This document shows positions 5,243 to 33,402 of a DNA stretch of 60,257 bases, piece by piece; position 1 is the first letter of the stretch; each line of letters begins with the position of its first letter. A model generated the notes under the pieces. It was not told where the DNA came from. It did not search any database and saw only the letters and a program-made list of their open reading frames with translations. The DNA is from Flavobacteriales bacterium (GTDB lineage Bacteria; Bacteroidota; Bacteroidia; Flavobacteriales_G; Salibacteraceae): the NCBI GenBank assembly GCA_013204105.1, contig JABMOM010000046.1:1-60257 (forward strand). The letters are read 5' to 3'. The position numbers and the translations under genes are program-made.

Positions 5243-6055
5243 ATGTCAAAAGAAGCTTACATCCTAGGCACCCATAATGAAGAATTAGACCGTCTTGGGT
5301 TTCAGCATCGGGTTTGGGCAGATGCTGCACACGCCCTTTGGCACAAGGCCAACTTCCGTGGTGGACAGCACATACTGGATCTTGGATGCGGCCCAGGTTT
5401 TGCGTCGTTTGACCTTGCAGGAATCGCAGGGCATCACGGACTAGTGACCGGCGTAGACCGATCTGCTGAATACATTGAATATGCGCAACAAAAATCGGAA
5501 GCCAGCGGTGTTCAAAACACTCGTTTCATGCATTCCGATTTCGCTGGCATGGAGCTCGGAAAAGAGCAATTTGATGCGGCTTACGCGCGATGGGTCTTCT
5601 CTTGGATTACCGATGTGGATGAGACCATCGTTAAGGTAGCTGCATCCTTGAAGCCCGGCGGCGTATTTGCCGTCCAGGAATACTTGCAATGGGGAACCTT
5701 TCAGATGGTCCCTGAACATCCAGATGTGCGTGTGATGATTGAAGCCTGCCGCGAAAGCTGGCGAATGATGGACAGTGAGATCGATATCGGCCGGACGCTT
5801 ACCGAGCGTTTTGAGAAGGCCGGACTATCGATTAGCCACGTGGCACCGCTGGAACGAACGGCGAGGGTCGACAGCCTGACTTGGCAATGGCCTACGGGGT
5901 TTTTGCGCATTTATGCAGTGCAATTGATGGCATTGGGACTCATTACGCAAGGTCAGCTCGAGCGCTATCTTGAGGTGCTGCCTGAAATCGAAGGACAAAA
6001 CAGCGCCTTTCTTGTGACCCCTCTGATGGTGGAGATCATTGGCATAAAACAATAA
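5243..6055 (+). CDS. Class I SAM-dependent methyltransferase
   Basis: A 270-residue soluble protein. Motif I of the Rossmann methyltransferase fold is clear (ILDLGCGPG, residues about 44-52), followed by the acidic ribose-binding position (TGVDRS) and a motif with HSDF that would contact the adenine. The C-terminal third is variable and would hold the acceptor site, which I cannot identify; similar proteins act on small molecules or quinone precursors. No signal peptide. It is followed after 27 bases by the TerB-like gene on the same strand, so the two may be cotranscribed. Confidence 0.85.
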   Translation: MSKEAYILGTHNEELDRLGFQHRVWADAAHALWHKANFRGGQHILDLGCGPGFASFDLAGIAGHHGLVTGVDRSAEYIEYAQQKSEASGVQNTRFMHSDFAGMELGKEQFDAAYARWVFSWITDVDETIVKVAASLKPGGVFAVQEYLQWGTFQMVPEHPDVRVMIEACRESWRMMDSEIDIGRTLTERFEKAGLSISHVAPLERTARVDSLTWQWPTGFLRIYAVQLMALGLITQGQLERYLEVLPEIEGQNSAFLVTPLMVEIIGIKQ

Positions 6056-18506: not shown

Positions 18507-19991
18507 TCAGTCTACCCAAAGAACTGAATTATAGGCTCCATATTCATTGTGTTCCTTCTGTGGATTGTTTGGATCGTGGATCCAATTCCCATCAACGATG
18601 AACTTATACAGGCCTTTTCCTTTTGGAAGGAATACTTTAATCTTCCACCCTTCTTCGACACGCGTCATTGTATAACCTGAAGTTGACCAAGCGTTAAAAT
18701 TTCCGCTGAGCGCAACCCGCTCGGCTTCCCCGTATCCTTCCAAAATAAACTCCCTGTTTGCGCCTACGGATCGAACAGAGTTCACAGCTTCATTTTCCCC
18801 AGCAGTGACCTGGTTGACAGGGTCAATAATCCACTGATCATCAACGATAAACTTGTACTCATAATTTCCAGGCCCCAAGACGTAAGGTAAATACCAACCC
18901 GCTGCTGAAGGATGCATAACGAGTTCGCTTTCGCTCCAACCGATGAAGGATCCCGTTAAGATCACCTGTTCTGCATCTTTATGCCCTTTCAATTCAAACT
19001 GGATCGGCTCACCCACTTCTAATACGGAGTTGAGCACGCCGTTTTCATCGCTGCGTTGCACGGGATTGGTCGGGTCAAGGATCCACTCTTTTTCGCCGAA
19101 CCACCCACCTTCATCGAGCACAAACTTGTAACGATAAGTGCCCTCCACCAGATAGACGGGAAGCGTCCAAGCATTGGAATTCTTGCGCATTTCTGGATTG
19201 CTTTCATTCCAAGCAGTAAAATCACCAGAAAGCACCACCTTCTCTGATGATGTATGTCCTGGAAGGGTGAATGAATGATTGATTTTTACATAGAGGTTGT
19301 TTTCGTTGCCGAACTTGGCATTCTCTTTCGGATCCCAATTCCAAACATGTCCAAATCCGTCGTAATAGGTTTCGGTGTTCATAGGATCGAGGATCCAACT
19401 TCCGTCCACCACGAACTTGTATCCCCAAACACCCGGAGATAGATCTATCTCTACTACCCACCCATCAGCCATCTTTTGCATTGGATAGGAAAGGGTGCTC
19501 CAATTGCAAAAATTCCCAGAGAGGTACACTTCCTCAGCATCGGCATAACCCTGTAAGAAAAACCTTGTTTGTCCATTGCGCAGGTCTTGAAGGTGCTTCA
19601 TTCGCCTTTCGTTGAAACCAAAAGGAGCCAGACTGTGATTTGCATTAGAAGACACGTCTACTCCCCCCTCTATTTGAATTTCATTGTACCCCCAATCCAC
19701 ACCGTCAAATGAAGCCAATGTGCGTTTCAGAATCAATTTTTCTTCGGTGCAATCTTCTACTGACCAATCACCTCGGCTCATGCCTTGAGTGGGCATGCCA
19801 TTGAAGGTGCTGTCAAAACCAAGGGAAAAAAGACAACTGTCTAGTGCGTCTTTCTCCATGCTAAGATCAATCTCTTGGAAGACGACCTTGCCTTCAATTC
19901 TGAACTTGATATGCTGATCTTGGGCCAAGCTCCAAGCCGCAATCAATAAGAACAGCACCAAAGAAATGATATGTCTCCTCGTTTGATTCAT
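18507..19991 (-). CDS. Secreted protein with four tandem glycogen-binding-like (CBM48/E-set) domains
   Basis: A 494-residue exported protein (signal peptide ending SLAQ). Residues about 25-140 form an unassigned N-terminal region. Then four clear repeats follow at about 143-236, 240-326, 331-410 and 414-494. Each repeat reads F-x-L-x-G, then V-x-L-(S/T)-G-x-F-x-x-W, a W near the middle, Y-x-Y/L-K-F-x-V/L-D, W-I-x-D-P-x-N and an N-S-V-x-x-V end. This is the pattern of the AMPK-type glycogen-binding/CBM48 domain, which normally occurs once, fused to a catalytic domain; here there is none and no T9SS tail. Likely role: binding of alpha-glucan or similar polysaccharide outside the cytoplasm. The ATG overlaps the stop of the upstream aspartic protease gene (ATGA). 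Confidence 0.8.
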   Translation of the reverse strand: MNQTRRHIISLVLFLLIAAWSLAQDQHIKFRIEGKVVFQEIDLSMEKDALDSCLFSLGFDSTFNGMPTQGMSRGDWSVEDCTEEKLILKRTLASFDGVDWGYNEIQIEGGVDVSSNANHSLAPFGFNERRMKHLQDLRNGQTRFFLQGYADAEEVYLSGNFCNWSTLSYPMQKMADGWVVEIDLSPGVWGYKFVVDGSWILDPMNTETYYDGFGHVWNWDPKENAKFGNENNLYVKINHSFTLPGHTSSEKVVLSGDFTAWNESNPEMRKNSNAWTLPVYLVEGTYRYKFVLDEGGWFGEKEWILDPTNPVQRSDENGVLNSVLEVGEPIQFELKGHKDAEQVILTGSFIGWSESELVMHPSAAGWYLPYVLGPGNYEYKFIVDDQWIIDPVNQVTAGENEAVNSVRSVGANREFILEGYGEAERVALSGNFNAWSTSGYTMTRVEEGWKIKVFLPKGKGLYKFIVDGNWIHDPNNPQKEHNEYGAYNSVLWVD

Positions 19992-20917
19992 AGGATAGGA
20001 CAAAAGGTAAGTGTTCGTTTTTTAAAATTCAGGACCATGGCACCGCGTGCAAGTAGGTCAAAACCGATCATTCCATCGATCGGCACACCAAAGGCATTGC
20101 TCATTCTAGAGAGGTCAGAAATCACCACGCGGCAATTGGTCAGTGGTACCCCAAAATCAACGCTTGTCAGGTTACCTTGCAATACATAAACTGCCTTACC
20201 TGAACTACCCATCAGCGGCATGCTGTTCGTAATGGTGACCGCCTCAAAGACATCGTCCTTGAGGGTATTAGAAAGAATGGTGATTTCCGCTCCGGTATCG
20301 AAACAAAAGGTCAGCTTTTGGTCATTGATTTCGCCTTTGAGCAGAAGAACGTTGTTTTTAATCTTGAAATCGAAATCGACCGGCGAAGAAGCGCAAGCCG
20401 GAAGTGGTGCAACAGTTGCACCCTCCTTATTGATGCGGTGCAATTCTAATGCGAGACTCCGAAGGTCCAAGCGCATTTCAAGCTGGAGAAACATGTTTAA
20501 CCCAAGCAAGCCTAAGATCTTTACTCCTCGACTGTTCTCGATGGCGCCCAAGTCTGTGAGGTCGGCTTCTAGGTCGTCAAATTTGAGAGAACGCAATTCA
20601 AAGGATGTCACATTGATAACGTTCACTGTATCACTTCCCCCATTTACGTCGCTCATCACGCGCCGCTCGGTCACTTGACCATCACCGAAATAGGTTTCGT
20701 TGAGGACGAGATATGGCGCCCCTGTGTCGAGAATAAAGTAGCCCAATTGCCCATCGACTTTGGCTTCCATGAGCACCAGGTTCCCCGCCCGCTTAAGCGG
20801 CACCCTGATGAATTCGAACTCACCCAGCGGATCAGGTGCCTTGCCCAACTCAACCGTAGCCATTGCCCTTCCTGTGAAGAACAGACAAAACGAGAAGAAG
20901 AGCACGAAACGCAGCAT
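19988..20917 (-). CDS. Exported pepsin-like (retropepsin-type) aspartyl protease
   Basis: A 309-residue protein with a signal peptide (LRFVLFFSFCLFFTGRAMA). Two lobes are each complete: the first has the catalytic FILDTGAP at residue 64 and the hydrophobic-hydrophobic-Gly loop in ILGLLGLNMF; the second has CFDTGAEI at residue 207 and GMIGFDLL. So one chain carries both DTG active-site halves that retroviral proteases supply as a dimer. Expected location is the periplasm or outside. The ATG at 20917 lies 4 bases after a perfect -7 element TATTTTTG, giving an almost leaderless mRNA. Its stop overlaps the start of the four-domain glycogen-binding-like gene, indicating a joint function. Confidence 0.85.
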   Translation of the reverse strand: MLRFVLFFSFCLFFTGRAMATVELGKAPDPLGEFEFIRVPLKRAGNLVLMEAKVDGQLGYFILDTGAPYLVLNETYFGDGQVTERRVMSDVNGGSDTVNVINVTSFELRSLKFDDLEADLTDLGAIENSRGVKILGLLGLNMFLQLEMRLDLRSLALELHRINKEGATVAPLPACASSPVDFDFKIKNNVLLLKGEINDQKLTFCFDTGAEITILSNTLKDDVFEAVTITNSMPLMGSSGKAVYVLQGNLTSVDFGVPLTNCRVVISDLSRMSNAFGVPIDGMIGFDLLARGAMVLNFKKRTLTFCPIL

Positions 20918-31278: not shown

Positions 31279-32517
31279 ATGAAAAAAGATATCGTCATAC
31301 TAGGAGCCGGAACCGCAGGAACCATGATGAGCAATCACTTGCGCAGGGCACTAGCCGATGACTGGTCTATCACCGTGATCGACCAACGCACTGAACACCA
31401 TTACCAACCCGGCTATCTCTTCGTTCCTTTTGGTGTCTACGAACCCGAAGAAATCGTAAAACCCATCGAAAAATTCATTCCTCACGGCGTGGATTTGGTG
31501 TTGGGAGAGATCGATCGCATTTATCCGGATCACGACAAGGTGGTGATGGGTGATGGTAAAGAATACAACTATGACATTCTCATTATCGCCACCGGAACAA
31601 ACATAGCTCCTGAAGAAATCGAAGGCATGATGGGCCCTCATTGGCACAAGGATGTGTTTGACTTCTATACCCTAGAAGGCGCGGTAGCCTTGCGAGATAA
31701 GCTCAGGAAATGGGAAGGCGGCAAGATGGTCATCAACATTGCCGAAATGCCGATCAAATGCCCAGTGGCCCCACTTGAACTCGCGTTTCTTGCCGATGCC
31801 TACTTCGAGCATCGCGGCATGCGCGACAAGGTGGAACTCGTATTTGCCACTCCGATGAGCGGAGCGTTCACCAAGCCTAAGGCGACTGAAAAACTCGACT
31901 ACTTGTTAAAGGAAAAGAACATCAAAATCGTGCCTGACTTCAACATCATGTCCGTGGATGGCGAGAACAAGACCATCACAGATTACGGTGGAGAGGAAAT
32001 CAGCTACGACATCCTCGTATCTGTTCCAACAAACAAGGGAAGCGATCTCATGGAGCGCTCAGGCATCGGAGATGAAATAAACTATGTTCCGACCGACCGA
32101 GGTACGCTTCAGACTAAAGTGAAAGAAAACATTTTCGCGATCGGGGACGCGACCAATATTCCAGCTTCAAAAGCCGGATCCGTGGCCCACTTTGAGGGTG
32201 AGATCCTATTGGAAAACATCCTTCGCTACGTCAAAGGCGAAGCTTTGAAAGAGGAATTTGACGGACACGCGAACTGCTTCATCGAGACTGGACACGGCAA
32301 GGCCTTATTGATCGATTTCAACTACACCCATGAACCGGTCACTGGAACCTTCCCCTTCCCAGGCGTAGGTCCTTTGAGTCTTCTCAAAGAAAGCCGCATG
32401 AACCACATGGGAAAAATGGCCTTCAAATGGATTTACTGGAACATGCTGATCACTGGCAGACACTTGCCGTTCGTATCGGCTCAAATGACAGAGGCCGGAA
32501 AGGTCTTTGACGATTAG
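31279..32517 (+). CDS. Sulfide:quinone oxidoreductase-like flavoprotein
   Basis: A 412-residue FAD enzyme. Residues 4-15 are the FAD dinucleotide-binding GxGxxG (ILGAGTAG), IFAIGDATNI near 285-295 is the second FAD contact, and NYDILIIATGTN closes the first domain. Two cysteines only are present, Cys161 in KCPVAP and Cys333 in ANCFIETG; these line up with the two redox cysteines that form the polysulfide bridge in sulfide:quinone oxidoreductases, while the third cysteine of many SQRs is missing. The C-terminus has a short amphipathic segment (FKWIYWNMLITGRHLPF) that would sit on the membrane near quinone. It is the first gene of a three-gene module with DsrC/TusE-like and DsrE-like proteins. 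Confidence 0.85.
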   Translation: MKKDIVILGAGTAGTMMSNHLRRALADDWSITVIDQRTEHHYQPGYLFVPFGVYEPEEIVKPIEKFIPHGVDLVLGEIDRIYPDHDKVVMGDGKEYNYDILIIATGTNIAPEEIEGMMGPHWHKDVFDFYTLEGAVALRDKLRKWEGGKMVINIAEMPIKCPVAPLELAFLADAYFEHRGMRDKVELVFATPMSGAFTKPKATEKLDYLLKEKNIKIVPDFNIMSVDGENKTITDYGGEEISYDILVSVPTNKGSDLMERSGIGDEINYVPTDRGTLQTKVKENIFAIGDATNIPASKAGSVAHFEGEILLENILRYVKGEALKEEFDGHANCFIETGHGKALLIDFNYTHEPVTGTFPFPGVGPLSLLKESRMNHMGKMAFKWIYWNMLITGRHLPFVSAQMTEAGKVFDD

Positions 32518-32561
32518 CTCACAAAACAATAACAACAGAAACCAAACACAATCAAAATATC

Positions 32562-32870
32562 ATGGAAAAGACAATGGCAGGAACGGCAATCCGAGTGACC
32601 GAAGAAGGTTACTTGGAAGATTTCAATCAATGGTCCGCAGAAGTGGGCGCCGAAATCGCCGCAGAAGAAGGCATCACGATGACAGACGAACACTGGAAGG
32701 TGATCGACTACATCCAAGACCAATACAAAAACGAGGTACCACTTACCATCCGAAAGGTTGGAAAGAGCGGAGTCATCGATATCAAAGGATTCTATGCGCT
32801 CTTCCCCGGTGGCCCGTTAAAGAAGGCGAGTAGAATCTCTGGGATTCCAAAGCCAGTTAGTTGCATCTAA
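32562..32870 (+). CDS. DsrC/TusE-like sulfur carrier protein, single-cysteine form
   Basis: A 102-residue carrier. It keeps the DsrC/TusE fold signatures (GYLEDFNQWS, HWKVIDYIQDQY, GGPLKKASRISGIPKP) and the flexible C-terminal arm ending SCI, with the sulfur-carrying Cys101 as the penultimate residue. At the position of the second arm cysteine of true dissimilatory DsrC, 11 residues earlier, it has Ser90. So it should carry a persulfide but not form the intramolecular trisulfide of DsrC; this resembles TusE-type relay proteins. It lies between the SQR-like gene and the DsrE-like gene, with gaps of 44 and 19 bases, which argues for a joint relay. Confidence 0.9.
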   Translation: MEKTMAGTAIRVTEEGYLEDFNQWSAEVGAEIAAEEGITMTDEHWKVIDYIQDQYKNEVPLTIRKVGKSGVIDIKGFYALFPGGPLKKASRISGIPKPVSCI

Positions 32871-32889
32871 TCCAATTAAACAAGAAATC

Positions 32890-33402
32890 ATGGAATTATT
32901 ACAGCCTGTAAAAGAAGAAAAGACCAAAAAAGAAGCGAAGATCAATAAGGTGATGATCATCGTTTCTAAGGCAACCTTAGAGAATGTCTATGCCAGCTTT
33001 ATTCTAGCAAATGGAGCTCGCATGGAAGGCATCGAATCCGAATTGTTTTTCACCTTCTTCGGACTTGAAGCCATTACCAAATCGAAACTCGAGCACTTGC
33101 ACGTAGCAACCGTGGGCAATCCCGCCATGCACATCCCAACCATGTTGGGTGGACTGCCTGGAATGGAGGCCTTTGCTACTACAATGATGAAAAAGGAGAT
33201 GGAGAAGCTCGATATTCCACCAGTGGATGAGTTTCTGGAGATCCTTTCTGCCTCAGGAGTGAAAATGTGGGCCTGCAAATTGGCCATGGACATGTTTCAC
33301 TTGGAAGAAAAAGACCTGATTGACGACTTGGAAGGAGTCTTGACGGTTGGAGATTTTTACAACCGAGCACATGGAGAAGGAACCCACCTCATGTTCATAT
33401 AA
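32890..33402 (+). CDS. DsrE/DsrF-like sulfur-transfer protein (DsrE2 type)
   Basis: A 170-residue protein of the DsrE/DsrF/DsrH-like group. It opens with a Lys-rich 20-residue segment, then VMIIVSKATLENVYASFILA (the first strand and helix of the fold), FFTFFGLEAI, and a single Cys129 in MWACKLAMDMF, the expected persulfide-carrying position. Longer than E. coli TusD, it matches the DsrE2 forms that occur next to sulfur-oxidation genes. It should take sulfur from, or hand it to, the single-cysteine DsrC-like carrier just upstream. Confidence 0.85.
   Translation: MELLQPVKEEKTKKEAKINKVMIIVSKATLENVYASFILANGARMEGIESELFFTFFGLEAITKSKLEHLHVATVGNPAMHIPTMLGGLPGMEAFATTMMKKEMEKLDIPPVDEFLEILSASGVKMWACKLAMDMFHLEEKDLIDDLEGVLTVGDFYNRAHGEGTHLMFI

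Follow-up and report, generated by a model that had tools for sequence, protein, structure and literature searches.

A type III sulfide:quinone oxidoreductase, a single-cysteine DsrC/TusE-family protein and a DsrE-family protein are encoded by a conserved gene trio, probably a sulfide oxidation operon, of Bacteroidota

The stretch of DNA that we analysed (hereafter the window: 60,257 nt, contig JABMOM010000046.1 of a Flavobacteriales bacterium) contains three consecutive genes which, taken together with their counterparts elsewhere, form a real and widely conserved operon of the Bacteroidota, most likely devoted to sulfide oxidation and sulfur relay. They code for a type III sulfide:quinone oxidoreductase (SQR), for a small sulfur carrier of the DsrC/TusE family and for a DsrE-like protein (Table 1). 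The architecture itself is already known with TusA as the carrier; what is new here is that a TusE-type DsrC occupies that place. A search by title and abstract of the open-access PMC literature found no description of an SQR-TusE/DsrC-DsrE operon in Bacteroidota (the literature in print may differ).

Table 1. Position and main characteristics of the three genes in the window
Gene product	Position	Strand	Characteristics
Type III sulfide:quinone oxidoreductase (SQR)	31279..32517	+	412 aa; Cys161 and Cys333; NF049943, 641 bits
Single-cysteine DsrC/TusE-family sulfur carrier	32562..32870	+	102 aa; penultimate Cys101, Ser90; PF04358, TIGR03342
DsrE-family (PF13686) protein, probable sulfurtransferase	32890..33402	+	170 aa; Cys129; PF13686, 115 bits

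Family assignment of the three proteins

The three ORFs, all on the same strand, are separated by 44 bases (SQR to carrier) and 19 bases (carrier to DsrE-like protein), i.e. in the order and with the gaps given by the original prediction. The cysteine inventory also agreed with it for the two small proteins, Cys101 and Cys129 being the single cysteine of each; in the SQR, the cysteines are Cys161 and Cys333. No sigma-70 promoter was found upstream of the operon (2.8 were expected from shuffled sequences); the four matches to a Bacteroidota-type promoter pattern in the window (1.4 expected) and the six terminator-like sites (2.8 expected) all lay elsewhere than, respectively, upstream of the operon and after its third gene.

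The SQR is well above the cut-off (525 bits) of the NCBIfam model NF049943 (type III sulfide quinone reductase, selenoprotein subtype). In a PDB sequence search the top match was human SQOR (E 9e-51), with both cysteines opposite SQOR cysteines, and human SQOR again came first (TM 0.86) when the AF2 model of the protein (mean pLDDT 93) was submitted to Foldseek. The family model, the fold and the two cysteines all place the protein in the type III class, the catalytic cysteines of which are located near positions 159 and 331-339 in the portions of PMC13047784 and PMC10989961 cited here. The window enzyme is thus a type III SQR, predicted from its sequence to carry out sulfide-dependent quinone reduction. 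It is not of the selenoprotein subtype: the selenocysteine site of NF049943 is HxxU (according to a table of PMC13188914) and the window SQR has a cysteine there (HANC333), which led us to reject a selenoprotein reading. None of the 73 over-cut-off NF049943 matches among 296 genomes (see below) contained an in-frame stop. The cysteine form is therefore common, and the 'selenoprotein subtype' name that annotation gives it may be wrong.

The carrier scored 97 bits against PF04358 (cut-off 24.9) and 82.7 bits against TIGR03342 (cut-off 53.5), matched DsrC structures in the PDB sequence search and has the penultimate cysteine; it thus fits the TusE/DsrC/DsvC family. It was far below the TusE equivalog PRK11508 (68.4 bits versus a cut-off of 191), and it is not a dissimilatory DsrC either, since the second C-terminal cysteine is replaced by Ser90 and its own genome gave no dsrA match. 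The DsrE-like protein belongs to the DsrE/DrsE_2 family by its PF13686 score (114.7 bits, cut-off 25) and its conserved Cys129; it was below the DsrE2 equivalog NF047629 (102 bits versus 210). Its top PDB match, in the sequence search as well as in the fold comparison, was 2QS7 (SSO1126), the protein named DsrE2B in the cited part of PMC4175335; the AF2 model used was only fair (mean pLDDT 72, residues 71-99 below 50).

Conservation of the trio as a set

The carrier search of 60 genomes (the window's own and 59 relatives) gave 13 matches, or 12 once a weak one was discounted (G021: 31% identity over 42 residues, with one stop). The SQR-carrier-DsrE-like order was kept in all 11 loci around the carrier matches in other genomes of the class; five congener loci had flanks similar to those of the window and six had different ones, the three genes remaining side by side throughout. 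In named genomes the carrier had 414 relatives, and the 80 best were analysed; eight of the 11 class loci recur among them, so that the two counts overlap. All three genes were present in the same order in 77 of these best 80 of 414. The SQR gene was upstream in 77 (some of them contig-cut or split) and the gene for the DsrE-like protein was downstream on the same strand in 80 of 80. As to the three loci without SQR, two (L060 and L067) start less than 100 bases from the carrier and one (L070) has another gene upstream; each of these genomes has an SQR of the same family on another contig, of full length for L070 and L067 and, for L060, as a fragment of 58 residues where a contig ends. Chance ORFs are ruled out by the family matches together with the recurrence in 11/11 class loci and 77/80 named loci. 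The named relatives include Flavobacteriaceae, Saprospiraceae, Chitinophagaceae and Cyclobacteriaceae, together with one Ignavibacteriota and one Kapaibacterium.

A sample of 296 genomes of the phylum led to the same picture. NF049943 was over cut-off in 73 of them and DsrC in 76, against 0 and 1, respectively, of 14 control genomes. One family, f36 (64 members as listed, which leaves 232 genomes outside it, a total perhaps a few genomes off), is treated separately below; by gene content, it probably corresponds to the green sulfur bacteria. Outside f36, the DsrC gene adjoins the SQR gene in 28 of 28 SQR genomes and an SQR is present in 28 of 29 DsrC genomes. A PF13686 match lies at most 263 bases from the carrier match in all 28 trio genomes. 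Conservation as a set, the check that the original prediction had named, was therefore borne out both by the named loci and by these 28 genomes. PF13686 was over cut-off in 79 of the 296 genomes (28 with the trio, 40 of f36 and 11 others): since these 11 lack the trio, the family alone is no marker for it. The pairwise distances of the three proteins, calculated over 87 non-redundant complete trios (from 103 loci plus the window, itself included), were correlated, with r values of 0.79, 0.80 and 0.85 reached in 0 of 1000 permutations, in a calculation which ignores shared ancestry.

A variant form has 731-835 bases between the SQR and carrier matches (7 of the 28 genomes). A DUF1641 homologue was detected by tblastn in that gap in the six loci fetched (L158, L161-L165), and the protein found at the same place in L101 is a DUF1641 protein by Pfam; L071 also has a DUF1641-type gene between SQR and carrier.

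Conserved residues and interrupted copies

In the best 80 named loci the four cysteines were invariant wherever aligned: C161 in 75/75, C333 in 77/77, C101 in 80/80 and C129 in 79/79. Position 90 of the carrier was Ser in 41 of these loci, Thr in 38 and Ala in one, and never Cys. Ser90 is thus ordinary and expected, because such a replacement has been published for genomes without DsrAB, where the second DsrC cysteine is almost always Ala, Ser or Thr (as stated in the cited part of PMC3397948). The penultimate cysteine was retained in 12 of 13 trio carriers from the phylum sample. The exception, L166 (carrier at 5487-5795 of that locus), ends in ASYV, with a tyrosine codon (TAC) for the penultimate cysteine, while its SQR and DsrE genes are open.

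A few copies were interrupted, among them two of the 11 class loci. In G007 (locus L015) the SQR gene and the carrier gene each contain an in-frame TAG, and the SQR of G009 (L014) has a frameshift; these could be due to assembly error or to decay. A stop fell inside an alignment in three of the 80 loci: L026, from the genome of G007, L039 and L073. Because of their in-frame stops, the L015 carrier and SQR were left out of the carrier (A1) and SQR (A3) sets, respectively.

Genomic context and distribution within the genus

The window's own genome (96% complete) gave no match to dsrA, TusA (PF01206) or SoxB; the idea of a dsr remnant was rejected on the empty dsrA search. The prediction that no dsrAB, sHdr, tusA or rhodanese gene is near the trio held for 20 other proteins of the window that were compared with Pfam (drawn from 71 ORFs of at least 120 aa, several of them overlapping): none belonged to the rhodanese, TusA, Dsr or Hdr families. 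Another contig of the same genome (C30, locus L184) carries two rhodaneses, an MBL-rhodanese fusion, TauE/SafE and Crp-type genes. The window also contains a SulP-type sulfate permease gene (1156-2856, about 28 kb from the trio) and a gene (18507-20003) whose product has four carbohydrate-binding stretches of the AMPK1 type (PF16561).

Within the genus the trio is patchy (7 of 13 genomes). Its slot is bordered on one side by a PMT-type/methyltransferase pair and on the other by a glycosyltransferase gene. In five of the six trio-less congeners, and in G006, where the trio is elsewhere, the slot is filled by a gene of about 578 codons (L199-L203 and L205), the product of which has TPR repeats by Pfam in L201; the gene is in pieces in L200. 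In the sixth trio-less congener (G008), the neighbour of the glycosyltransferase gene is a SulP-family gene. This difference in slot occupancy indicates that, within a single genus, the cassette has been acquired, lost or relocated.

Proposed mechanism and alternatives

We find it rather probable that the trio is one operon for cytoplasmic sulfide oxidation, with sulfur relayed via the DsrE-like protein to the carrier, and that it serves detoxification. The SQR would oxidise sulfide on its Cys161/Cys333 pair and send the electrons via FAD to quinone, the quinone of Bacteroidota being menaquinone. The DsrE-like protein would take the sulfane sulfur on Cys129 and pass it to the C-terminal Cys101 of the carrier, which would hold it in protein-bound form and deliver it to a consumer. 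The most likely candidates for that role would be the rhodanese and MBL-rhodanese (persulfide dioxygenase-like) proteins encoded, with a TauE/SafE exporter, elsewhere in the genome. The net effect would be detoxified sulfide plus some gain of electrons. With the set conserved in the best-scoring named loci, the best inference that can be drawn is a relay, as first proposed from the window, that leads from the SQR to a carrier with a single thiol. Rhodanese, MBL-rhodanese, TauE/SafE and Crp-type genes are found beside the trio in four of the 80 loci (L090, L098, L102 and L104; by clustering, with Pfam on proteins of L090 and L102), a set that contig C30 of the window's genome also carries. MBL-rhodanese is present at E <= 1e-30 in 56 of the 60 relatives with or without the trio, so that its link with the trio, which rests on these four loci, is only suggestive. 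The L166 carrier, with its tyrosine in place of Cys101, goes against the mechanism.

The transfer step has a precedent in A. vinosum, where in vitro sulfur moves from DsrE-Cys78 to DsrC-Cys111 and the second DsrC cysteine is dispensable (cited part of PMC3397948). This precedent in a homologous pair, and the strict conservation of the penultimate cysteine, argue against a regulatory or protective role, in which the DsrE/DsrC pair would sense or buffer the SQR persulfide with no delivery to an enzyme; such a role would agree with the lack of a dedicated consumer gene in the operon and with the behaviour of DsrE2B, unreactive with six sulfur compounds in the experiments quoted from PMC4175335, and we consider it unlikely. 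We also see little chance, slightly less than for a regulatory role, that the operon mainly supports supplementary lithotrophy, harvesting electrons from sulfide with zero-valent sulfur stored or excreted as the product. Genes for NiFe hydrogenase (small subunit) and its maturation follow the trio in eight of the 80 loci, of the Muricauda/Flagellimonas type (L041, by Pfam; L042, L047, L050, L052, L055, L056 and L065, by clustering), the trio of G064 lies beside SoxY and the flavoprotein of flavocytochrome c sulfide dehydrogenase, and elemental sulfur is the product proposed for Methylacidiphilum (in the part of PMC10205796 cited). Against this stand the variable flanks at other loci and the absence of SoxB and dsrA matches from the window's genome. 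The wording 'rather than for energy' of the original prediction was not borne out, given that the SQR feeds quinone and that some relatives have the trio beside these hydrogenase, SoxY and flavocytochrome c genes.

The other use first suggested, supply of sulfur for tRNA, fared worse. The carrier would then play the part of TusE in E. coli and feed tRNA 2-thiouridine or cofactor synthesis, the SQR taking the place of cysteine desulfurase as the sulfur source. With 43% identity, the carrier is indeed nearer to TusE of E. coli than to the two-cysteine DsrC of f36 (32%), and MnmA was over cut-off in all 12 trio genomes among the 60 relatives; it was also over cut-off in 38 of the 48 without the trio. 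A biosynthetic relay sits poorly with a trio restricted to part of the genus, and the carrier falls well short of the TusE equivalog. TusA (PF01206) was over cut-off in none of the 60 genomes, as against 11 of 14 control genomes. The patchiness of the trio, the absence of TusA and the independence of MnmA from the trio all argue against tRNA supply, and we regard the biosynthetic relay as very unlikely.

Coming back to the sulfide-oxidising relay, it is conceivable, and we propose it tentatively, that the one-cysteine DsrC is a dedicated acceptor of SQR sulfur via DsrE, neither Dsr nor Tus, and that the operon moves as a unit. If true, the DsrC/TusE fold would have a third role, present in many Bacteroidota, perhaps hundreds (to judge from 77 of the best 80 of 414), and dsrC would have to be used with caution as an indicator of dissimilatory sulfite reductase metabolism. 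TusE-family proteins in genomes devoid of dsrAB are easily misread as parts of tRNA thiolation; the tight linkage to SQR across Bacteroidota indicates that sulfide oxidation is the process in which many of them take part. Isolates (Flagellimonas, Allomuricauda) would then offer a genetically simple relay in which SQR-to-carrier transfer is directly testable.

Relation to dsr clusters and to other known systems

All 44 genomes (of 296) with dsrA over cut-off, and all 14 with SoxB over cut-off, are of f36. An SQR of the same clade and dsrC lie at most 5 kb apart in 5 of the 43 f36 genomes having both. In one of these clusters (L153), an SQR (NF049943 over cut-off, 640 bits) is followed by a cobB/dsrN-type gene, a two-cysteine dsrC, dsrA and dsrB, with a tusD/dsrE homologue farther on. 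The likeness to the window trio is in the SQR and the nearby DsrC-family gene; the f36 DsrC differs in having two cysteines and in accompanying dsrAB. Loci L153-L157 gave no match to the window DsrE-like protein, although in other f36 genomes a PF13686 protein with a higher score is encoded near dsrC. In 9 of the 14 genomes with SoxB (e.g. G120, G163 and G079), an SQR of this same clade lies no more than 5 kb from SoxB, which implies that the SQR can work without a neighbouring DsrC. In the SQR tree the trio SQRs are split from those of f36 (support of only 0.42), and in the carrier tree the trio carriers cluster with one extra sequence (support 0.74). The pathway had been described as 'pared-down': the f36 clusters that join this SQR clade to dsrC make this possible, while the trees give no order of origin, the SQR tree, at its support, not settling whether the trio or the dsr arrangement is older.

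The window trio is best read as a version, with a TusE-type carrier, of the SQR-TusA-DsrE2 operon found in Methylacidiphilum fumariolicum SolV; the latter is about 1.7-fold up in sulfide-adapted cells (as given in the cited part of PMC10205796). Both consist of three genes, that for a type III SQR coming first, that for a small carrier second and that for a DsrE-type protein last; the carrier is TusA there and of the DsrC/TusE family here, in a comparison made by description. The DsrE4 group also has a DsrE-family gene linked to, and downstream of, SQR, but its prototype is archaeal (Metallosphaera) and its description in the cited part of PMC4175335, by which alone it was compared, includes no DsrC. 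With E. coli TusE the carrier shares the penultimate cysteine, the second-cysteine position being Thr in TusE; TusE works with TusA and TusBCD in tRNA thiolation (PMC3397948, part cited), whereas the window carrier is linked to SQR in a genome where TusA was not found. A haloarchaeal arrangement, TusA-SQR-like-DUF1641 plus DsrE-TusA (L149), combines an SQR-like enzyme, DsrE and a single-thiol carrier, and includes DUF1641, which one form of the trio also has; it differs by an SQR identity of about 33%, by TusA as the carrier and by having DsrE-TusA on the opposite strand. On both haloarchaeal plasmids (L149 and L150), the DUF1641 gene follows the SQR-like gene.
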